From the NCBI GenBank assembly GCA_015227615.1, contig JAALGZ010000051.1, forward strand, positions 62,001 through 126,000: DNA of 64,000 nt. The letters run 5' to 3'. A program made the translations under genes and the position numbers. Shown piece after piece: positions 43,934-57,494 of the stretch. Within the stretch, counting starts at the first letter, position 1, and every line of letters starts with the position of its first letter. The stretch comes from Labyrinthula sp. Ha. Its lineage: Eukaryota > Sar > Bigyra > Labyrinthulida > Labyrinthulaceae. The notes under the pieces are model-generated. The model did not search any database and had not been told where the DNA came from. It saw only the letters and a program-made list of their open reading frames with translations.

Positions 43934-45499
43934 ATGGGAAATAAAACAAGCACAAAACCCAAAACATCAAATAAAATGGCAATCGATTACGATGCTGTGC
44001 GAAAAGATCTCGTAGAGTTAATGTCAAACCCTGACTGGGACGACGGGTCATACGCTCCAGGATTCATTCGCTTGGGTTGGCATTCAAGTGGCACTTATAA
44101 CGATGCAGACAAGACAGGAGGAAGCAGTGGAGCAGGTATGAGGTTTGAAGATGGTGTTGAAAACCAAGATCCTGAGAATAAAGGACTGTCAGATTATTTT
44201 AAGATCCTCCAGCCTGTTTATGAAAAGTACAAGGGACAAGGATTAACAGTAAGCGATTTATGGATCCTTGCTGCTTACGTGGCATTAGAGGTAACAGATG
44301 GTCCAAAAATAGAGTTTGCACCTGGAAGGAAAGATGTGGAGAAAAAAGATGCAATAAAACCAGGTAGATTACCTGAAGCTGAGCACGGTTTAATCTCCTG
44401 GGAGGATGGGCAGAAAGATGGTCATCTGGATGAAGAAGGAAGGATCAAGGGATGGGAAAAACTGGCGGATCATATAAGGCAAACATTTCATAGAATGGGG
44501 TTTGAGGATAGAGAAATTGTCGCTTTGATGAGCGGAGGACATGTTTATGGTCGTTGTCATCCTCATTACAGCGGATACGCGGGAGCTTGGGTCGAACAAC
44601 CTGTTAAGTTTAGCAATGAATACGCTGCTGATATGATAGAAGACGAATGGATGTACGTACAGCATGATACGAAGGTTGATGGAGTCCTTGTACCTGAGGA
44701 AACAAGACCCATAGAGGGGAAGAGGCAATACATGGGTTCTTGGAAACCAGTTGCTGCTGAAGAGCTTCTGGTGGGGTCATTTTCTCCGAAAGAGTATCCA
44801 ATTGGACAATATAAGATTACTACTGGGTGGATTAATGTGCGCAGAAGTTTGGATAAAGAGAGTTATGTAATTGACCAGCCTGAAAGAGATGCAGTGTTTA
44901 ATGTGATTTGTGTGAGACAATTTGGACAGGGAGTTAGAGGACAACTTGAAGTTGGTGGATGGGTAAGTATTGTATCTAGTGATGGAACAGAAAAAATGCT
45001 TGAGCGAGTTGGAGATCTGGAGCTTAACGGGGGAAGATTTAGGCTGCTGGAAGAAGGCAGGAATTTATTCAAGAAGGCATCTAATGCGCCAACGGTTGTT
45101 GGTGGAGATTTGCAAGGATTAGAAGAAGGCGGTGTTGAAATCGGTTCTGTATTGGAGATTAGTGAATTTAAGGTGTTGAACGAAGAGGAAGGAAGTAAAG
45201 TTGAGATCTGGGGAAAACTTGACGATGACAAGTGGGTTTTGATGGTTGATCCGACGAATGGAGGATTATTTGAAAAGATAAAAGAAGGGTATAATGATGA
45301 ACCAAGAAAATCTGTGAAGAAGATCCAGGTGAAGAATCAAATGATGCTTCCAGCAGATATGGTTTTGCTTTGGGATGAAAAGTTCAAATCTGTTCTTCAA
45401 GAATATGCAGAAGACGAAGAACTGTTGAAAAAAGAGTTTGGTGAAGCATATAAGAAACTCACCGAGCTTGGTGTTGCTGTCTGTCCTGTAGCACATTAG
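43934..45499 (+). CDS. Class I haem peroxidase (CcP/APX-like) interrupted by two SH3-like modules
   Basis: A single-exon protein of 521 residues. Class I peroxidases reduce H2O2 using cytochrome c or ascorbate. Distal residues Arg46, Trp49 and His50 lie in FIRLGWHSSGTY. The proximal helix MSGGHVYGRCH carries His203, with Trp219 in GAW (the CcP Trp191 position) and FSNEY after it. The domain's last part, MMLPADMVLLWDEKF with Asp475 (the CcP Asp235 position) and KKLTELGV, appears only at 470-514. Between them, residues about 245-465 form an insertion with two related beta-rich modules. The first (290-359: GQYKITTGWINVRR, then VRGQLEVGGWVSI) and the weaker second (about 386-449) resemble SH3-like 'GWvSl' repeats. 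The start MGNKTS fits N-myristoylation; a second Met at 15 could be used instead. The CcP-type Trp favours cytochrome c as donor, but this is inferred. Confidence 0.88.
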   Translation: MGNKTSTKPKTSNKMAIDYDAVRKDLVELMSNPDWDDGSYAPGFIRLGWHSSGTYNDADKTGGSSGAGMRFEDGVENQDPENKGLSDYFKILQPVYEKYKGQGLTVSDLWILAAYVALEVTDGPKIEFAPGRKDVEKKDAIKPGRLPEAEHGLISWEDGQKDGHLDEEGRIKGWEKLADHIRQTFHRMGFEDREIVALMSGGHVYGRCHPHYSGYAGAWVEQPVKFSNEYAADMIEDEWMYVQHDTKVDGVLVPEETRPIEGKRQYMGSWKPVAAEELLVGSFSPKEYPIGQYKITTGWINVRRSLDKESYVIDQPERDAVFNVICVRQFGQGVRGQLEVGGWVSIVSSDGTEKMLERVGDLELNGGRFRLLEEGRNLFKKASNAPTVVGGDLQGLEEGGVEIGSVLEISEFKVLNEEEGSKVEIWGKLDDDKWVLMVDPTNGGLFEKIKEGYNDEPRKSVKKIQVKNQMMLPADMVLLWDEKFKSVLQEYAEDEELLKKEFGEAYKKLTELGVAVCPVAH

Positions 45500-46589: not shown

Positions 46590-46676
46590 GAAGAAGAACT
46601 TTTATTTTGGATAAATCGAAAAAATTCAAACTGTTATTATGATGTGGGTGCCTAGACGGATTGGTCTATTGAGCTC

Positions 46677-47118
46677 TGTAGAGTAAAAGATGTGAAAACA
46701 CTCGTATTGAGATACAAGAAGCTGTATTTCAATTTTCAAATTTGTCCGAATTTGTATTTTGATTAATTGAAGTGATGACGTGGAATGATGTATATGTAAC
46801 ACAGAGAAAAATATGATAAGTTAATGGAAGCTAACGGTAAGGATGAAAATACATAAGAAAAAATACATAATAGGAGATAAAAAGAATTGAAAAAATACAG
46901 TAAAGAAAAGTAACTCTAGTTTAGGAGTCAGTTTAGTTTGTTCGTTAACCTTTAAGCAGACACTATTTAGCAAAAAACTATATAGAAAAAGAGTTAGTGT
47001 CGCCTTTTTCCTGAAGAATTTAAGCGAGAAATTACGCATAAAAAATTAGACTAAGAAGAACAAATTTAAAAGCAGAACACATTTAAAGTAAAAGCAGAAA
47101 CCTTAAAAGCACTCTATA
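46677..47118 (+). repeat. 5' LTR
   Basis: 442 bp, beginning TGTAGAG and ending CTCTATA. It matches 54174-54615 over its full length with no length difference. It should carry the element's promoter. The end could be one base earlier if the target duplication is 5 bp. Confidence 0.93.
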
Positions 47119-47159
47119 TTGAATTCAATAAGTTTAAACGTGCTAGAATAATAAAAAAT

Positions 47160-50100
47160 ATGACTGAAGAAAATAGTAATAATGTACCAAGAGTTAACAT
47201 CGGGGCTCGTGAGCTTCGATTTATTGAAGAAACCCGTAGGTCTCTGGGCCTACCAGCAACAGAAGAGAAGGAAAATAACAACGAAGGGGACCAAGTAGAA
47301 AACGAAGACCAAATGCAGGACGATGGGAATCCAACCCAGGATCTAGTAGAAAATACACCAACAACAACACAATCAGACGGTAACCCTAGGGATAATAGTA
47401 ATGAAGATCCATTCCAAACACCAACTGGAAACCAAGAAGAGATGAGGATGATCTCTCAAAGAGACTTCAATAATCTAATGAGCAGTTTGGTGGGTTTAAG
47501 GAGGGAAGTTGAAAGGAACAGGAGTTTGTCTAGCAGGGTAGTTACAGCCACCCCAAGGCGTGCAGCATCAACTAGAACTGAAATATTAACCGACAACATC
47601 CCTCTGACTTTTAGCTCCACAACTGAATCAAGTGAAAGTGATGGAACCAACGTTAATCCAAGAGAAGGAATTTCTATGTCTCCACGATCTCGAAGAATGG
47701 AAAGAAAGGCCAGACTTCGTGAGGAAAGATATAAGGATAAACCCATCCTAAAAACTCTTGACCCATCAGAAGTAACTAAATTTATATCAGAATTTGATAT
47801 CTACGAAACGACTGTAATCCATCAAAGATTCGCGTTGCCCTCAGCAGACCTAAACCTGAACTTAAGTAATGAAGTCAAGGTAGATCTAGTCGAAGAGGGA
47901 TACGACATGAGGGATCAAGCTAAAATAATTAAATACTTGAGAAAGATCAAAAGGAATGAAGATAAGAGTAGATCAAAGGTAGTGATCAGAGAAATAGATA
48001 ATCTGGTTTGGAAAAATACAGGTAGTCCATCAGCGTCAATGAGCGAATTTATTAAATCAACAGATAAGATTTTGAGAGGAATAACCTTTTCCAACAAAAG
48101 TATGGAAAAGGAATTGTGCCTAAAAATAATTAAAAGATTACCTATAGAATTTGGAAGTGCAAGGGCGAAAGAACGTCAAACAGAAGAAGGGTGGAAGACT
48201 TACAAGTCTTTAAAAAAGGGATTGAGAAAAGCTGCTTTGTCCATTTCAACATGGGACATTCAAAGTCCGGCCCTTCAACATCAAAAATTTAGTAAGTCAA
48301 GAAAGAATACCTCAGAATCTAATAATAGTCAATCTAGGAGATCAGGATCACAATATGTATCTAGAAATTCAAGTGAAGTAAAAATCATTGTCCTACAAAC
48401 TGGACATAAAAAACATATTGTACCCCGCTCATGGCCAATAGAGAAGCGCCGGAAATATTCTCGAGACAATAATCTTTGCGGTTATTGCTTCACTGAGGGC
48501 CATCATGCAGCACAATGTCCAGTATTAAGAAGGAAAGAAAGTGATCAGAACAGAAATACTAGAGATCAAGACAGGCCAGATAGAAATACAAATCTACAAA
48601 GAAGCCAAAGTAATGTTGCACCTCAAGTGAATCAAATTTCTTCATCGGAAAATAAAACATCGGGAGACAATAACGATAAAAATAATAATAATAAAGAAGG
48701 AGAAGTAAAAGAAGAGTCAGAGATAGAAATATCGGCTAATAATTTAGATCCCGTTGATTTTCCAGAAATGTATGTGTTGGAGGTAAGTAATAGAAATGAA
48801 GTAAATGAGGTGGTAGTTGGTAGTGATGTGGAACCTTTGAGTATGGAGTGGGATGAAGATTTTGAATCGGAACATGCGACTCGTAGCATGTATAGGGATG
48901 AGATTTCGGATGAAATTATTGAAGGTGAACATGAGGTTGTTTCTACGTCAAGCAAACCTTATATTGAAACCCCAGAAATGCAGGAAGTCCTAAAAAATAA
49001 AATAAGAGAAAAAATTAGTGAGCTAGTAGAAAATAATATTGTTGAACCAAACCAAGCAGATGATCTTGAAGAAGTAATGGTTAGAAATAAAGATGCATTT
49101 GCCTTCAAAGAAGCCAAGTGTGACTTTAATTTACTAACTCCGATGCAAGTGAAGATTAAATCAGACTGCGAATCCTTTACTGCCAAGCCATATCCTATGA
49201 AAAAACAAGTGTTAGAGGAGCTAAAAATAAAAATACAGGAGTTGTTGGACATGGGAATGGTATATAGGGAACCTAACCCTTTCTTCTCAAGTCCAGTTAT
49301 GATGCTTCCCAAGCCTAAAAGACCAACTGACTTTAGGATGGTCGTCGACCTAAGAAGGGTGAATAAAAATTGTTTACCGACGGGTTTGGGATTGCCAGAT
49401 CTAGAAGCTCAACTTGGCTGGCTTAAGGGGAACGAAGAGTGGTTTGGATCCTTCGATGGTTTGTCTGGATTTGATTATTTGCGTTTAGATCCATCATCCA
49501 GTAAATACTTCGGCATGGTCACTCCAATCGGAACCTACTGCATGACAATGTCACCGCAGGGATTCCGAAATACTCCTCAAGTTTACCAAGAAAGGTTAGT
49601 AAACGAAGTATTAAATGGATCAGAAGTGGGAGGACTGTTCGGAAATGGCGCTCTACAATGGTTGGATGATACATTATTATATCACCAAACCTTTTCTGGG
49701 TATTTGCAACTTCTTGAACAGTTCCTAAAAAATTGTATTAAAGTAAAATTCAAACTTAATTTGGACAAATGTGATATCTTAAGAAAGAAAGTTAAATGGT
49801 GTGGTCATGTAATCGAAGGCGGTCATTGGGGGTATGACGAAAATTATTTTTCAAAAATTACTAAAATGCCAAGACCTGGAAATCTGGGCCATTTGTATGA
49901 TGTAGTTTACGTTTCTACATGGCTGTCAGATACCATTCCAGGTCTTTCAGAAAGTAAGAGTTATTTGAATTCCAGGATGCGTGAAATCGAAGGAATAATA
50001 GCAGAGAATAGAGGTAAAAGAATAAATAAAGATGCAAGAAAAAGAATTAGTATAGCCGAATTTTGGACAGATAAAGATCAAGCAGAATATGCAAAGTTTT

Positions 50101-53100
50101 TGAAAAATATAGAAAATTGTAAGCATAAGAGAATGAAAATGTTTGAGGCGGAAAGTCAGGTTGCTATTTTTGCAGATGCAAGTAATAATTATTGGTCCAG
50201 TGTAGTTGCTTTATATGTATCTGATGGATGGGAACCCGTGTTCTTTGTAAGTGGAGAGTTTACTCAATCTTCAAAATTTTGGTCCATGACAGATAAGGAA
50301 ATCTATCCTATCATTAGGACTTTAAAAAGATATAGATTTTTATTGATAAATATATCAAAAGAGATAAAAATATTTACAGATCATCTAAATATAAAATACT
50401 TGATGACTGGAAAGAGAGATGTAAAACAATCAACATTTGGAAGAATCCAAAGATGGATCTTAACCATCCAAGAATTTAATATTGTTTTTTATCATATTCC
50501 TGGTAATAGAAATGTTTTAGCAGACCTCCTAACCCGTTGGGGATATTTAGGAGCAACTTCCACTTCTAGTCCGGAGAAGATTTTAATTAAAGACACAAAT
50601 AATTGGACTCTGACTTGGAAAGGGATAAAGTTTTCAGTAGAGGAGAAAGAAATTGATTTAGAAAAGAAAAAGATAAGCAATATAAATAAAGATGATCAAG
50701 AACCCTCAATGATTAATGCTGTAGAAAATGAAGTTGAAAATTGGCGATTTGACCCAGCTAATATTCAATTTGTTAGAGACAGGGTAGGTAAAAACTTTCC
50801 TAAAAGGAGAACCGAATGGGAAGATTTATCGTCAAGAGAATTAAAACAAATCCAAAAAAGAGATAAAGTAAACCAAAAAAGAGGATCAAGAATAAATAAG
50901 CAGGGCTTGATTGTCAATAAAGAAGGTAAGATTTTAATTCACTTTCAGCATCTGGAGAAGTTTATAGTTTTAGCTCATAATATATCAAATCATGGTAGTA
51001 ATGACGAAGTGATAAGACTTCTAAAAAATTTCGAATTTATTGAAGTAAATAAATCACAAATTCATCAATTGGTAAGAAAATTAAAGAAATATTGCCTTCA
51101 TTGCGACAAGGATATAAAACTGGAACGAAGATTTTATAAAGAAATACCGCACGCAGTGAATGAAAATGAGCTTTTGTTACACTCAGATTTCCTTAAAATA
51201 TATGACGGATATCTTCTTGTTCTAGTAGAGGATGTATCAAGGAAAGTAATGATGGTTCATGATAAGTCAGCTAGTGCTCATGTGGTCGTAAAAGCACTCG
51301 TCAAATGGAGAGCTGAAAATGGAATACCACCGTCGTTTAAATTATCAACAGACAATGGTTCACATTTCAGTAACCAAATTATCAGAGAATTTAATAAAAT
51401 TTATGGAGGCCAACACCACTTTTCAGTGGTATACTCTCCATGGAGTAACGGCTCTGTGGAAGTCATGAACCGTTTCATATTAAGAAATCTGCGTCAAATG
51501 TGCAGCGAATATAATCTGCCCTATGAACAATGGCCAGAACTAATTGATATTGTAGCAGATACCATAAATAATACCCCTACGAGGCAAGGGTATACACCAA
51601 ACGAATTAACTTCAATCTTTGGCAAGAAAAATGAGTTGGCAGCTATAGAAGAAGGTAGCATTAAATTGATGCCTCTAGTAAGAAATAATGAATTAATAAT
51701 ACCAAATGATGCAGAGAAATTTGTAAATAATTGTAAGATCCTAGTAAGTACAATTGAAGAAAAGAGAAAGAAAATAATGCCTTTAATTGAAAAGGACCGA
51801 AAAACTCAAAGAGATTATATCAATAGAAAATTCAAGATGTCTCATGTGCAATTTGCACCTGGGGATTTTGTTTTAATGAGCAATGTAGGAACACCCCGAA
51901 ATAAATCAAAGTTGCAATTGAGGTGGAATGGTCCATATGTAGTTGAAGAAATCTTAGGATCAACTACCTATAAAATAAGGGCTTTGGATGGAAAAATCCA
52001 CGTAGCGCATGTTCAACGTCTTAGTTTATACGAAGCGCAACCTACAGACTTTGAGGTCACATCTGAAATAAAGAAAGCCTTTTATTATAACCAAGGCATC
52101 TATGAGGTTCATCGTCTATTAGATATCCGAAGGTCAACTGGAGGATTTGAAATATTAGTTTGGTGGAAAGGATTTCCCAAACAAGAAGCCAACTGGCAAA
52201 ATTTTGATCTACTGCTTCAAGATATTCCAAAAACTTTGGAAAAGTATATAAATAAACATAAATATGATAGTAATGATTTTATAGCAGCTTGGAATGTTTT
52301 GAGGCATAAATTAGATTTGCCTGTAGAAGCTGAAGTAAATTTTCTGAGAGAAGCTGTTCATAGTAGTGAAGTAACATGGACAACAGATTTTTGGAAAGTG
52401 ATATCTTATCCTCAGCATCTAAAATTATTAAACGACCATGTGTATCCCGGTCTTAGCAGATCAAAAGGCTGGAACCAATTTGAGAAAGAAGTGATGCAAA
52501 AATGTATCTTCGTCTTTGGTCTAGGCAAGTGGGAACCAATAATAAAAGAAGGCTATCTGCCAGGAAAAACTCGTTCGCAGCTAGTAGAATTTGTAAAAAC
52601 GTCGATTGGAAGTCAAAGACTTTATGAATTTCACGGTTTGAAAATAGATCTGAACATTCTAAAAAAGTACAATGATAGTAAGAATAGTGTAATCAGGAGG
52701 AATGGAGTAATTATAAATACAGGAAAAGAATTATCAAAATCTGATTTGAAGAAGATTCGCAAGGAAGTTTGGAAACAATTATATAGTAAGCAGAATTTCA
52801 AAATAACTCAAGAGATGATACCATTGTTAGGAATAAAAGAAATTTCAAATTCAAAATTGAGCCTTCAAGATATTAGTAAAGTGATCAAGAGAGGTGAGAA
52901 AAAAGCTAAGAGATCATCAGTGCCGGAAATATGTGAAATAAAATACACCAATAATCGACATTTGAATTTGGAAATAAAAGGTGAAATACACTCTGTTTTA
53001 TTAGACAGCGGAGCTTGGCGAAGCTGTGTTGGAGAAAATTTAATCCAAGGATATCAAATCATTTCAGGAGATCTAGAACATCAGAAAATGTTGCAATGTA

Positions 53101-54146
53101 AGAGCGTGTCAGGTAATATAATAGAAGTACTTGGATATGTAGTGATAAACTGCACTTTGAAAGGAGAAAAGATATGTGTGAGAATGAATAAAATGAGATT
53201 CTATGTCTTGAAATGTAACACGAACAAATTTATATTAGGAGAAGATTGGTTGAGAAAAATGAATATAGATCCAATAAAAAAGCTTGAAGAGAAGTGTGAG
53301 AAAAGAGATAATAAAATAAGCATAAATGAAGTAAATAAAGAAGAAAAGAAAGAAAAGTTGATTGAATGGAGAGAATTATATGAATCGGAAATTGAAAAAA
53401 TATATCGGCGTAAGAAGTATAGAGATGATCTGTCAAGTAAATTGAAGGATAAATCATCAACGGTTAGGTGGGTACCATATGGCAATATAGAAGATTCATT
53501 TTTTACAATAGAAATTGATAATAAAGAAGAATATAGAGATCTTATACTCTGGAAACAGCCAGAAAACAGCAAACTGAAAATTGCTAATATTCTTGATCAA
53601 AATCTGACAGCTTTCGGTAAGTTTGGAGTTTTGTTAATAGATCCACCTTGGAATAATCAAGCGTCTGGTAGCCCTACTAGGGGACTTACAATTCATTATC
53701 CTACTTTGACAGATTCGCAATTATTAAAAATCAATTTTGGAACTTTAGTTGAAGAAGGGATAGCTGCTTTATGGATCACCAACAATAAATTTGAAGTAGG
53801 AAGGAATATTTTATCACGCAACGGGTTCAGAATAGTTGAATACATGGTTTGGTGTAAGAAAACTGCTGCAGGAAGGATCCATCCAAGCCAAGGTCAATAT
53901 CTGCGGCATTCCAAAGAAATTCTTTTGTTAGCGGTAAAAGGAAGACCATTGTTATCTAAGCAGCGTAGTTCGGATGTTATTATATCTAGAATCTTACAGC
54001 AGTCCAGAAAACCACGTGAGGTATACGATTTGTTAGAAAAATTGGCACCAGGGGTGAGGAAAATGGAAATATTTGGTAGATTTTGGAATTGTAGAAGTGG
54101 ATGGTGGACTTTTTCGGGTCCATATGAGTGGAAAGAGGAAGTTTGA
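47160..54146 (+). CDS. Retrotransposon Gag-Pol polyprotein with C-terminal MT-A70 adenine methyltransferase
   Basis: One frame of 2328 codons starting 41 bp after the LTR. Gag is about 1-480, with a CX2CX4HX4C zinc knuckle at 440-453. Reverse transcriptase is about 690-880 (LDD core near 835), RNase H starts near 1000 (FADAS), and integrase has an HHCC finger near 1272-1315 and a D1343-D1398-E1434 triad. A chromodomain lies near 1645-1705 (YEVHRLLDIR...VWWKGF...NW). A Myb/SANT-like segment is near 1767-1815 (FGLGKWEPIIKEGYLPGKT). A retropepsin-like protease with DSGA is near 1949. The MT-A70 domain, about 2140-2325, has DPPW at 2161-2164, HYPTLTDSQLL, ALWITNNKFEVGRN and KMEIFGR, closest by eye to the METTL3/METTL14 group. 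MT-A70 enzymes methylate adenine N6 in RNA or DNA. Gag and Pol are fused in one frame without a shift. Confidence 0.93.
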   Translation: MTEENSNNVPRVNIGARELRFIEETRRSLGLPATEEKENNNEGDQVENEDQMQDDGNPTQDLVENTPTTTQSDGNPRDNSNEDPFQTPTGNQEEMRMISQRDFNNLMSSLVGLRREVERNRSLSSRVVTATPRRAASTRTEILTDNIPLTFSSTTESSESDGTNVNPREGISMSPRSRRMERKARLREERYKDKPILKTLDPSEVTKFISEFDIYETTVIHQRFALPSADLNLNLSNEVKVDLVEEGYDMRDQAKIIKYLRKIKRNEDKSRSKVVIREIDNLVWKNTGSPSASMSEFIKSTDKILRGITFSNKSMEKELCLKIIKRLPIEFGSARAKERQTEEGWKTYKSLKKGLRKAALSISTWDIQSPALQHQKFSKSRKNTSESNNSQSRRSGSQYVSRNSSEVKIIVLQTGHKKHIVPRSWPIEKRRKYSRDNNLCGYCFTEGHHAAQCPVLRRKESDQNRNTRDQDRPDRNTNLQRSQSNVAPQVNQISSSENKTSGDNNDKNNNNKEGEVKEESEIEISANNLDPVDFPEMYVLEVSNRNEVNEVVVGSDVEPLSMEWDEDFESEHATRSMYRDEISDEIIEGEHEVVSTSSKPYIETPEMQEVLKNKIREKISELVENNIVEPNQADDLEEVMVRNKDAFAFKEAKCDFNLLTPMQVKIKSDCESFTAKPYPMKKQVLEELKIKIQELLDMGMVYREPNPFFSSPVMMLPKPKRPTDFRMVVDLRRVNKNCLPTGLGLPDLEAQLGWLKGNEEWFGSFDGLSGFDYLRLDPSSSKYFGMVTPIGTYCMTMSPQGFRNTPQVYQERLVNEVLNGSEVGGLFGNGALQWLDDTLLYHQTFSGYLQLLEQFLKNCIKVKFKLNLDKCDILRKKVKWCGHVIEGGHWGYDENYFSKITKMPRPGNLGHLYDVVYVSTWLSDTIPGLSESKSYLNSRMREIEGIIAENRGKRINKDARKRISIAEFWTDKDQAEYAKFLKNIENCKHKRMKMFEAESQVAIFADASNNYWSSVVALYVSDGWEPVFFVSGEFTQSSKFWSMTDKEIYPIIRTLKRYRFLLINISKEIKIFTDHLNIKYLMTGKRDVKQSTFGRIQRWILTIQEFNIVFYHIPGNRNVLADLLTRWGYLGATSTSSPEKILIKDTNNWTLTWKGIKFSVEEKEIDLEKKKISNINKDDQEPSMINAVENEVENWRFDPANIQFVRDRVGKNFPKRRTEWEDLSSRELKQIQKRDKVNQKRGSRINKQGLIVNKEGKILIHFQHLEKFIVLAHNISNHGSNDEVIRLLKNFEFIEVNKSQIHQLVRKLKKYCLHCDKDIKLERRFYKEIPHAVNENELLLHSDFLKIYDGYLLVLVEDVSRKVMMVHDKSASAHVVVKALVKWRAENGIPPSFKLSTDNGSHFSNQIIREFNKIYGGQHHFSVVYSPWSNGSVEVMNRFILRNLRQMCSEYNLPYEQWPELIDIVADTINNTPTRQGYTPNELTSIFGKKNELAAIEEGSIKLMPLVRNNELIIPNDAEKFVNNCKILVSTIEEKRKKIMPLIEKDRKTQRDYINRKFKMSHVQFAPGDFVLMSNVGTPRNKSKLQLRWNGPYVVEEILGSTTYKIRALDGKIHVAHVQRLSLYEAQPTDFEVTSEIKKAFYYNQGIYEVHRLLDIRRSTGGFEILVWWKGFPKQEANWQNFDLLLQDIPKTLEKYINKHKYDSNDFIAAWNVLRHKLDLPVEAEVNFLREAVHSSEVTWTTDFWKVISYPQHLKLLNDHVYPGLSRSKGWNQFEKEVMQKCIFVFGLGKWEPIIKEGYLPGKTRSQLVEFVKTSIGSQRLYEFHGLKIDLNILKKYNDSKNSVIRRNGVIINTGKELSKSDLKKIRKEVWKQLYSKQNFKITQEMIPLLGIKEISNSKLSLQDISKVIKRGEKKAKRSSVPEICEIKYTNNRHLNLEIKGEIHSVLLDSGAWRSCVGENLIQGYQIISGDLEHQKMLQCKSVSGNIIEVLGYVVINCTLKGEKICVRMNKMRFYVLKCNTNKFILGEDWLRKMNIDPIKKLEEKCEKRDNKISINEVNKEEKKEKLIEWRELYESEIEKIYRRKKYRDDLSSKLKDKSSTVRWVPYGNIEDSFFTIEIDNKEEYRDLILWKQPENSKLKIANILDQNLTAFGKFGVLLIDPPWNNQASGSPTRGLTIHYPTLTDSQLLKINFGTLVEEGIAALWITNNKFEVGRNILSRNGFRIVEYMVWCKKTAAGRIHPSQGQYLRHSKEILLLAVKGRPLLSKQRSSDVIISRILQQSRKPREVYDLLEKLAPGVRKMEIFGRFWNCRSGWWTFSGPYEWKEEV

Positions 54147-54161
54147 TGTCACTCGTGTCTT

Positions 54162-54173
54162 AGAAGAAGGTAG
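54162..54173 (+). other. Polypurine tract of the retrotransposon
   Basis: AGAAGAAGGTAG directly precedes the 3' LTR. A purine-rich run here primes plus-strand DNA synthesis in LTR elements. It lies 15 bp after the polyprotein stop codon. Confidence 0.7.
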
Positions 54174-54615
54174 TGTAGAGTAAAAGATGTGAAAACACTC
54201 GTATTGAGATACAAGAAGCTGTATTTCAATTTTCAAATTTGTCCGAATTTGTATTTTGATTAATTGAAGTGATGACGTGGAATGATGTAAATGTAACACA
54301 GAGAAAAATATGACAAATTAATGGAAGCTAACGGTAAGGATGAAAATACATAAGAAAAAATACATAATAGGAGATAAAAAGAGTTGAAAAAATACAGTAA
54401 AGAAAAGTAACTCTAGATTAGGAGTCAGTTTAGTTTGTTCGTTAACCTTTAAGCAGACACTATTTAGCAATAAACTATATAGAAAAGGAGTTAGTGTCGC
54501 CTTTTTCCTGAAGAATTTAAGTGAGAAATTACGCATAAAAAATTAGACTAAGAAGAAAAAATTTAAAAGCAGAATACATTTAAAGTAAAAGCAGAAACCT
54601 TAGAAGCACTCTATA
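54174..54615 (+). repeat. 3' LTR
   Basis: 442 bp, the partner of 46677-47118. Flanked on the right by GCTC, the target-site duplication. Confidence 0.93.
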
Positions 54616-57494
54616 GCTCACTTCTTGATGATGTATATTGAAGTTTCAATATAAAGTTAGAACCAGAAATTTGATCCAGGGTAATCCCATATTAAGCTTC
54701 ATGTTCAGCTTCCATCTACGCTCTAATGATGTTTGACTTAAGGTTTAATTGGAAAAAAATATCAACCTATAAGCTAGCGAAGATCTTACTATCATGTTCA
54801 CATAAGAAAATTTTATATCTCTCTTTGAAGTGAATAGGATGGAAACCTGGTCCTGGAAGTTTACTCGTCGAAAAATAGAAGCATTATAAAGAAGAAGGAG
54901 TGATGAAGAAAATGAAGGTTCAATGGCACTCTAATTCCGTGTCGTTTTAATTGTTACCCTGCGTGTTTTATCTTAGCTTTGCAAAAATAGCTGTCTGGAT
55001 CCATTTCTAAGGCTACTTTATTGTTTCTCACCGGGGTCCTCTTGTGATGTTATACTTGCGTTTGAATCCATTTCTATAAGGAGGTAGGTATTATTTTTTG
55101 TTCATCAATGGCTTTTCGAGGATTCTACCTTAACTTCCAAGCCATATTAAGTTGGTAATCTAGGTGGATTGCGGTATTATTGAATCTAGATTGCCGTGTA
55201 GCTGTGTTCTTCAAATTTTTAGACATTTCACTGGTTCAAATATTGATCCTTAAAAAATGAAAAATATATTATTTCTATTCTACCTGTTGGTTTTAGATAC
55301 TTTAACAGTTGAATTTTTGTGTCTTTCCTTCTATAAGACTGTAATAATCTTACTTGAATTTATTTTCGGTTGTGATTTACATTTCTTTGCGTTCTTGAAG
55401 GATCTTATTCTTACATTGAATGGTTGATAACAGGGCCATCAAAATAGAAAGATTTTGGTACAAATCTCTGCATTGAAGAGACTGATATTTTTGTTCATAA
55501 TTCAGTGATATTTCGAGTATCTTTTCTCAAAACAAATCTTTTGTTTCTGATTTAATGCGGGCAAGACTTCAACTAATGTCTCTTGTCTACAAGTCAGATA
55601 CCTAATAGTTAACTTAAGGATCATCCTTTGCTGATATAACTTTTGCATAGGCGTCTATAACTACATATTATAATATACTTTTCTTTCAGCTCTTCTACAT
55701 AGTCTACAGTTGATTAGAATTATTATTGGATTTTGTACAGTAACAAACAACAGAACCCGTGTCTATCCCTGCACGTTGCAGTTAAATTCAGAGTGAAGTC
55801 AAATAATAAAACAACCAATACCATTCACATATCTACTTCCTTTTTCCTAGTTTTATTTTAACCTAAAAAATTTACATGGCTAGGTCGCTGAAAACGGTTA
55901 GTTCTAGTTTATAAAAAAACTAAGAACAAGAAAACAAGAAACTATTTTCGATGAAATAACATTGAAGGGTTAAAGTCATTTACCTAAATCGTTTTGTATA
56001 TTTCGGTTTCCTAAAGAAATATATAGAGAGAGAGAGAATTACTGTATACATATATATCTTTATCAATAGGGGCTAAGACCATTTTATACATCAAATATGA
56101 TAGTCTATTCTCAAAAAGTATCTTAGATTTCCTGGGAATATTATTGAAGATTCTAGTGATCTTATCTAAAATTATCGAGAACGAAGCGACATGTATATTG
56201 CTCTGATAGAGAACAGACTCATGAAAATTTTCAAAGAACATCTATATCACCCTGGTTCTAGAAAATTTATGGCTAAGGTACTCTGCAACATAGGAAAAGA
56301 ATACAAGACTTGGGGCTTCTTTTGTGGTGATCATCAATATGTTCACTCTTGAATTTAGCATTACATATTTCTGTTTCTTCGTTTTGAGGAAGGTTATGTT
56401 CTGGTTGGTACAAACCAGAACAAAGAGTAAAGGGTAACTTCTCACCAAAAGTGTTGAATAAATATTATACATAAAGATATTTTATGCCACGGATGTCAAT
56501 CCGGTCTATTTAACTAAAAATGATATAACTTGTTTTGTGACCACAGCTTCGATAATTAGTAATGTTGTACATTAGTATTGCAAAAAAAATCTATAAAGCC
56601 TGTGAAAAAAATCTGATTGCTTTATAGTTTTTAGAAATATCATCAAATGACAACAACCAATGAAGAGCGACCGTACATTTTGATTTGAAACATAGATGAT
56701 GTACAATGATATCATAGTTGCTTAGACTCTGTCAATCTAACATTGTGGTGAGGATTGAAATATATCAATGTTTTCCAGACATATGACGTACATTATATTT
56801 TTATTCTTTGTGACAGCTTGAGAAAGAAAAAGGCTCTCGGTATAAATAGAGCTACACAGTTAGTAGCTGTTGAAAAACCATGCTTTGTTAAGCGAAGTTG
56901 TCAAGAGTAATAGTATAAGCTCGTTCTACTATATCAATGGATATGTGTTTAGAATTCATAATTTCTTTCTTTTTTATGTTTGTGTTTACGATTTAAACAA
57001 TCTTTTAGCTTTGTATTCTAAACTTGGGAAACAAAATTTTCAAATTTCAAATATAGTCAGAGTGCTCTAGAATGCTGCTGTTCGAGAACACAGAGTGTTT
57101 AACTATAGAATAGGTTACTAAATAAGAAAGACGGCGTTTGTTGGTTGCATATACTAGGCAGTTAATATCTTTTCAGCATTATTACGTGGTAAGTGAAAAT
57201 ATGTATAGAAAATGGGAACAGGTGCTGGGCGTTGCTTTTGAATTTAAATCATAAATCATATTACTTGATTCAACTTACTAGAGACTTATACCTTGAGGTT
57301 AAGAAAGGAGATTGCCTGCCACAATGTAAATTACTCCATTAAGAAATATAAGATCCGAGTTTTGATTCACAGAGGTAACTTAACATATTAACCTTTTTAT
57401 GGAACGAATATGTAAAATACAGTAATACCCTAAGACTTCCAATGATCTACAGGTCTGTAAAAGTCAATTATTAACTGAAAAAAATACTTAATGA

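Follow-up and report, generated by a model that had tools for sequence, protein, structure and literature searches.

The 64,000-nucleotide stretch of Labyrinthula sp. Ha DNA analysed here (contig JAALGZ010000051.1, positions 62,001 to 126,000, assembly GCA_015227615.1; hereafter the window) contains a Ty3/gypsy long terminal repeat (LTR) retrotransposon whose polyprotein ends in an MT-A70 N6-adenine methyltransferase domain, preceded by a Myb/homeobox-like domain homologous to p1 of the Tetrahymena MTA1 complex. Because the p1-like and MT-A70 domains each match a subunit of one complex that writes N6-methyladenine (6mA), the element carries homologues of two of its subunits. We consider it probable that a gypsy clade took up the catalytic part of an AMT1/MTA1-type enzyme together with the p1 DNA-binding part, and that the resulting module writes 6mA on the DNA of the element itself. 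The arrangement suggests that the element brings its own chromatin mark.

The element, from LTR to LTR, occupies positions 46677-54615 of the window on the + strand, and its polyprotein is encoded by a single frame of 2328 codons without a stop (Table 1). The order of its domains, reverse transcriptase (RT), RNase H, integrase and chromodomain, is that of the chromodomain type of Ty3/gypsy LTR retrotransposons, to which the element belongs. Against PF00385 (cut-off 25.1 bits) the chromodomain scores 22.8 bits when the whole protein is scanned and 28.4 bits when the segment is scanned, so that only the latter passes. Several whole-protein scans place it under the Pfam cut-off, and with E allowed up to 10 all ten segments have a match. 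The MT-A70 match covers positions 1-168 of the 172 in PF05063 and scores 108.8 bits, against a cut-off of 23.9. The polyprotein stop codon and the 3' LTR are 27 nt apart. Assignment to the DIRS retrotransposons was considered and rejected: the integrase core is present, and no tyrosine recombinase is found among the 11 Pfam families listed. NCBIfam returned no family for the four proteins scanned.

Table 1. Features of the retrotransposon, in window coordinates
Feature	Position	Strand	Details
5' LTR	46677..47118	+	442 nt, TGTAGA...TCTATA; BLASTN self-comparison, 97.5% to 3' LTR
3' LTR	54174..54615	+	442 nt, TGTAGA...TCTATA; BLASTN self-comparison
Target duplication GCTC	46673-46676 and 54616-54619		4 bp, on the outer side of each LTR; script
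Polyprotein	47160..54146	+	2328 aa, one frame
CCHC zinc knuckle, gag part	48477..48518	+	Residues 440-453; scripted motif search
Reverse transcriptase	49314..49814	+	Residues 719-885; PF00078 E=1e-13
RNase H	50151..50477	+	Residues 998-1106; PF17917 E=9.9e-19
Integrase core	51186..51440	+	Residues 1343-1427; PF00665 E=2.2e-8
Chromodomain	52101..52253	+	Residues 1648-1698; PF00385
Myb/homeobox-like domain, homologous to Tetrahymena MTA1-complex p1	52461..52727	+	Residues 1768-1856; PDB sequence search
Aspartic protease-like region, after integrase	52965..53255	+	Residues 1936-2032; LLDSGA at 1947; weak match
MT-A70 N6-adenine methyltransferase domain	53622..54110	+	Residues 2155-2317; PF05063 E=3.7e-31
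DPPW motif	53640-53651	+	Starts at residue 2161

How general is this arrangement in the host genome? The assembly searched measures 50.84 Mb in 153 contigs. A six-frame search with PF05063 scored 150 of 354 candidates, all 150 above the cut-off, and many of the matches lie inside open frames of 1700-2660 codons. When three queries are joined, one of them contributing nine further rows, the matches listed, the host AMT1 gene included, amount to about 240 distinct MT-A70 places, a count that fragments may raise and candidates left unscored may lower. For gypsy RTs (150 scored of 514 matches, merged to 144), an MT-A70 lies 1-6 kb downstream on the same strand in 125 of the 144, upstream in two and on the other strand in none. 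In the control with Copia RTs, taken as the top 100 of 150 scored rows, it lies downstream in none and within 6 kb on either strand in one. Initially 52 of the 150 gypsy RT matches were without a listed MT-A70, and both of the two that were fetched proved to have the domain; after further searches 19 of the 144 are without one, three of them at contig starts and eight with a p1-like match downstream.

Nineteen long stretches, the window and L012-L029, picked for their MT-A70 or RT, were read at length. LTR pairs flank the MT-A70 domain in 14 of these; the repeats of L022, L024 and L026 are different, short or truncated, and no repeats were seen in L021 or L025, both of which lie at the start of a contig. 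A 4-bp target duplication bounds nine of the 14 LTR-bound copies, versus 16 of 84 for swapped ends. In L020 the LTRs are identical over 443 nt and the stop-to-stop frame runs to 2363 codons, so this copy, domain included, has probably transposed recently. Between the window element and L020 the ratio of nonsynonymous to synonymous divergence (dN/dS) is 0.066 for MT-A70, 0.045 for RT, 0.037 for integrase and 0.092 for the whole frame (dS 0.23); this is the one informative close pair, most wider pairs being saturated at silent sites. The initial annotation had claimed that the frame encoding RT, RNase H and integrase runs on into an MT-A70 domain and that the element carries this domain as its own. 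The first claim is borne out by the open codons, the PF05063 match and the DPPW motif, and the second by the recurrence of the domain across many families and by its low dN/dS in the informative pair; other genomic copies have the domain at the same place instead of consistently ending before it.

Relatives also occur in other datasets. A search with the end of the window element had a single match, P0001, which is 98% identical over the queried end, and P0034, encoded on a 10,933-bp ENA contig, is a distant relative with the same domains. With L026 as query 42 polyproteins were found, of which 12 belong to the MT-A70-bearing clade; the rows with MT-A70 are all from EukProt except P0034. The EukProt rows with MT-A70 presumably come from the same species as the window, since P0023 among them matches L026 without a difference over the query.

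The Myb-like domain, absent from the initial annotation, lies between the chromodomain and the MT-A70 domain. Across the chromo-Myb stretch an invariant W, GxG and PxK are found in all ten aligned rows, P0034 included. When a profile of this stretch is compared with PDB, the first match is p1 of the Tetrahymena MTA1 complex (7.5e-21), followed among Myb chains by p2/AMTP2 (8.8e-6) and SNAPC4 (1.7e-5); HP1-like chains are matched through the chromodomain part. As single queries, the window sequence matches p1 at 5.5e-17, p2 at 0.015 and others at 0.17 or worse; L029 matches p1 at 1e-17, its next matches being telomere Myb domains that start at 3.2e-4; and P0034 matches p1 at 3e-10 and p2 at 1.2e-5, with no other below 1. 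The kinship of the homeobox-like region to p1 exceeds that to other solved Myb domains, and a Pfam Myb domain is called in four of the ten rows at E up to 10. The match is limited to p1 residues 21-111 or 21-126 in the searches with the window and L029; the C-terminal helix-turn-helix of p1 contacts the N-terminal helix of MTA1.

The p1-like and MT-A70 domains mostly lie together in the host genome. Of 318 candidate p1-like matches 150 were scored, and 113 of these sit 496-1089 nt upstream of a listed MT-A70 on the same strand; the MT-A70 lies upstream in one and on the other strand in none. The remainder, 37 matches, have no listed MT-A70 within 2.5 kb, and among them are the two best, which are free-standing host genes. 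The p1 query matches 11 of the 12 polyproteins of the MT-A70 clade and none of the 30 others; by eye, the twelfth, P0027, stops within the p1-like region. A tree of Myb domains, from which 20 named rows (mostly near-copies) were dropped, has three starred branches and a distant outgroup, and we draw nothing from it.

To which branch of the MT-A70 family does the catalytic domain belong? Its best relatives are Tetrahymena MTA1/AMT1 (2.9e-31) and METTL3 (1.4e-30). The MT-A70 tree, built from 32 of 39 distinct domains (31 from elements and one from the host, near-copies being left out and partial domains dropped earlier), groups the element domains with AMT1/MTA1 at a support of 93/91, not starred, and sets the bacterial MT-A70 rows apart as a separate starred group. 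Nine of its rows labelled as retroelements (L031-L038 and L046) come from 1-kb stretches in which the MT-A70 is unpaired with an RT match; six of the nine have a p1-like match upstream. By eye, DPPW is followed by PxRG in 31 of the 34 element domains aligned, a feature common to MTA1 and the host AMT1 and not found in METTL3. We favour an AMT1-type rather than a METTL3-type origin for the catalytic part. The initial annotation had placed the domain in the MT-A70 family at large, and phylogeny with METTL3 and other members refines this in part: the AMT1 grouping is favoured, and METTL3 kinship is not rejected. The initial annotation had allowed RNA, cDNA or target chromatin as substrate; because the tree favours AMT1 and the neighbouring domain is homologous to p1, the predicted substrate leans toward DNA rather than RNA.

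We propose that the module acts as follows. First, the chromodomain, p1-like and MT-A70 parts would be brought to DNA by the polyprotein and the integrase. Second, the module would bind DNA, use S-adenosylmethionine (SAM) and write 6mA on the new DNA copy of the element itself and on the chromatin around it; a covalent p1-AMT1 pair would be a compact solution. In AMT1-bearing eukaryotes, 6mA made by AMT1 marks expressed genes, and AMT1 depends on p1 and p2 to function; statements on MTA9 (AMT6/7) differ, one calling it required and another dispensable (PMC12695648). Likewise, p1, the DNA-binding partner of MTA1, and p2 are required for the activity of the MTA1 complex, and the 6mA that this complex makes disfavours nucleosomes in vitro (PMC9852454). 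Since 6mA marks expressed genes and disfavours nucleosomes, writing it on a new copy would favour expression; the mark might keep a new insertion transcribable or pass the copy off as active host DNA. More tentatively, we suggest a self-marking class of elements, possible rather than probable in our view, in which AMT1 and p1 were captured once long ago, were coupled to a chromodomain reader and place an active-gene mark on the element's own insertions, so that hundreds of copies may shape much of the host 6mA landscape.

The module could instead mark the fresh cDNA or the integration complex, for example guarding it against nucleases or against a host system directed at unmethylated DNA, or steering integration, rather than regulating later expression. 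Sharing a polyprotein with the integrase and the chromodomain, it would be present in the particle and the pre-integration complex, a point in favour of such a role, as is the fact that all ten aligned chromo-Myb rows come from polyproteins that also have the MT-A70 domain. We know of no eukaryotic system that spares DNA bearing 6mA, and we place this alternative on the unlikely side.

Several observations weigh against the proposal that the element carries an AMT1-type enzyme that writes 6mA. The approximately unbiased (AU) test leaves METTL3 kinship unrejected (p-AU 0.276), and MTA1 and METTL3 tie in the fold comparison. Counterparts of MTA9 and p2 were not seen in the polyprotein, and the host was not searched for them. 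In MTA1 numbering (PMC9852454), the SAM-contact residue D182 is Asn in the window's family (overall, Asp in 23 and Asn in eight of the 34 domains), and by eye the C-terminal NE pair is not retained in that family. Altered motifs replace DPPW in some domains: DPAW and DPPY in four of the 34 each, and DLPF, DAPW, DPLW, DPPG and NPPW in one each. Finally, MT-A70 dN/dS is 0.265 between the window element and L017 and 0.838 between L023 and L021, both at dS 0.03, and shows no constraint there; the RT ratio for L023 and L021 is 0.797, and such close pairs hold too few changes to tell.

The first two of these points, together with the nearness of the METTL3 score to that of MTA1, speak for a reading in which the domain resembles METTL3 in function and methylates the RNA of the element (m6A), affecting its stability, translation or packaging. 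We find this distinctly unlikely, since the tree favours AMT1, the PxRG feature is that of MTA1 and the host AMT1, and the adjoining domain resembles the DNA-binding partner of MTA1. The host itself also argues against it. Six-frame genome searches with METTL3 and METTL14 as queries return the AMT1 gene first (43% and 31%, respectively) and then the elements, and no METTL3 or METTL14 exon stood out, although introns could hide one; the host likely lacks both. The AMT1 gene, a free-standing frame of 327 aa on C91 (L050), scores 3.7e-73 against MTA1 and 8.9e-36 against METTL3.

Could the MT-A70 domain have given up catalysis and now bind DNA or a partner in the manner of METTL14 or MTA9, serving for example as a decoy for host p1 or MTA9? 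Parts of DPPW or other SAM contacts are indeed lost in several families; this reading is less probable again, as DPPW is whole in the window element and in L020, and between these two copies the dN/dS values of MT-A70 and RT differ little. Across the 34 domains, the four DPPW columns keep D in 33, the first P in 32, the second P in 29 and W in 28, and the SAM-contact positions R357 and N360 of MTA1 are kept in 34 and 32, respectively. Given the altered catalytic motif, some families may be inactive, and in these catalysis was possibly lost or the partner role changed. The LTRs of the DPAW family are 96.5-99.8% identical. The DPAW, DLPF, DAPW, DPLW and DPPG variants occur in L001-L004, L042, L045, L033 and L023, of which L001-L004 are the same places as L012-L015 or their kin.

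That the arrangement is an artefact, either of misassembly or of the host AMT1 gene lying beside an unrelated element, has a negligible probability, since 14 copies, situated on different contigs or at different places, have the domain enclosed by an LTR pair and since the near-identical P0001 and the distant P0034, with the same domains, come from other datasets; chance, contamination or a neighbour gene are ruled out by the LTR-bound copies.

Was the methyltransferase captured once or repeatedly? The RTs of 22 MT-A70-bearing elements form one clade (99/98, starred) apart from 16 RTs of polyproteins without the domain, which were hand-picked from 30 such polyproteins; P0034 falls inside the MT-A70-bearing clade, and P0023-P0033 were not included. 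Distances between the RTs parallel those between the MT-A70 domains (n=22; Mantel r=0.91, p=0.0001; Spearman 0.68). In the MT-A70 tree a single element clade is not rejected (p=0.408), and that tree alone does not decide between one and repeated capture. The monophyly of the RTs and the matching distances favour a single capture, and, on these sequence comparisons, one old uptake followed by common descent would fit. P0035 and P0036, the two closest relatives on the RT tree, lack the MT-A70 domain and terminate near the chromodomain. By eye, the RT box reads WVDD in these two, and WLDD or WIDD instead of the usual YxDD in the window element and its relatives.

Capture from a phage was considered as the source of the domain and rejected: the best 10 of 73 phage records are 28-29% identical, and the bacterial rows stand apart. 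Viral contigs scanned with P0034 and with the window domain yielded no relative. Among BFVD folds the top row is an IME4-like methylase from a phage, a result that bears on the fold only. In PHROGs a phage DNA methyltransferase family is matched at 5.8e-29, so that profile scores alone do not rule out a viral source.

The initial annotation had noted that cytosine methyltransferases are reported inside some eukaryotic retrotransposons, which agrees with the account of the DNA methyltransferase (DNMT) retrotransposons of Symbiodinium and Klebsormidium (PMC5890265). As in the present element, the polyprotein includes the methyltransferase and the copies are many; in Klebsormidium the carrier is a gypsy element, and in Symbiodinium the RT and methyltransferase trees are congruent. 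The enzymes there are cytosine-5 DNMTs, whereas here an adenine-N6 MT-A70 domain is joined to a p1-type DNA-binding domain. DIRS-type elements are alike in that an adenine methylase (Dam-like or N6-adenine) resides in a retroelement; they combine a tyrosine recombinase with a Dam-like domain, in contrast to the integrase, chromodomain, LTRs and MT-A70 found here, and the Dam-like domain is called inactive in the ALOG-bearing DIRS class (PMC5890265, PMC3537659). With the ciliate MTA1/AMT1 complex (MTA1, MTA9, p1 and p2; PMC9852454) the element shares catalytic and p1-type domains that are homologous by sequence. Unlike that complex, it holds both parts in one retroelement polyprotein with a chromodomain, in which MTA9 and p2 parts are not seen. 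Chromoviruses have the same order of RT, RNase H, integrase and chromodomain; the present elements differ from them in the p1-like and MT-A70 domains after the chromodomain and, in part of the group, in a protease-like region after the integrase.

Among the matches listed in the open-access literature, judged by titles and the starts of abstracts, no MT-A70 domain in a retroelement is described; the subscription literature lies mostly outside this search. One match for MT-A70 with retrotransposon and integrase was PMC8885841, on N4-methylcytosine (4mC) in a rotifer, and the accessible parts of PMC12695648 and PMC6338049 mention no MT-A70 retroelement. In the literature met, as far as it is accessible, retroelement methylases are cytosine DNMTs or Dam-like; the present element brings counterparts of both the catalytic and the DNA-binding subunit of the eukaryotic 6mA machine. 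Carried by a retrotransposon, one MT-A70 lineage has reached about 240 listed places. The disputed role of 6mA on transposons becomes testable, since such an element would write the mark as a natural experiment. For biochemical work, it also provides an enzyme in which AMT1-type and p1-type parts are fused.

The position of the protease varies among the elements. In L026 and L027 the protease lies between gag and RT. In the window element, L012, L028 and L029 a protease-like match follows the integrase and sits between the p1-like and MT-A70 parts; it is above the cut-off in L029 alone (PF00077, 21.7 bits, cut-off 20.7), and in the window element it scores 14.7 bits against PF13975, below the cut-off of 28.2. 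Pfam detected no protease in L015 and L023. The unusual post-integrase order might release the MT-A70 part through self-cleavage.

Finally, we note several features outside the elements. The two free-standing host p1-like frames lie on C100 (L065, 227 aa) and C1 (L066, 384 aa). In the latter (C1:1284467) the p1 region is followed by an Agenet match that passes the cut-off, a possible link between the 6mA machine and histone marks. Upstream of the retrotransposon, at 43934-45499 of the window, a 521-aa frame matches the haem peroxidase family PF00141 (E=2.6e-31). Upstream of the 18S gene, positions 1-5526 of L010, a 10-kb rDNA contig, hold a tandem array; self-match offsets put its period at about 176 bp.

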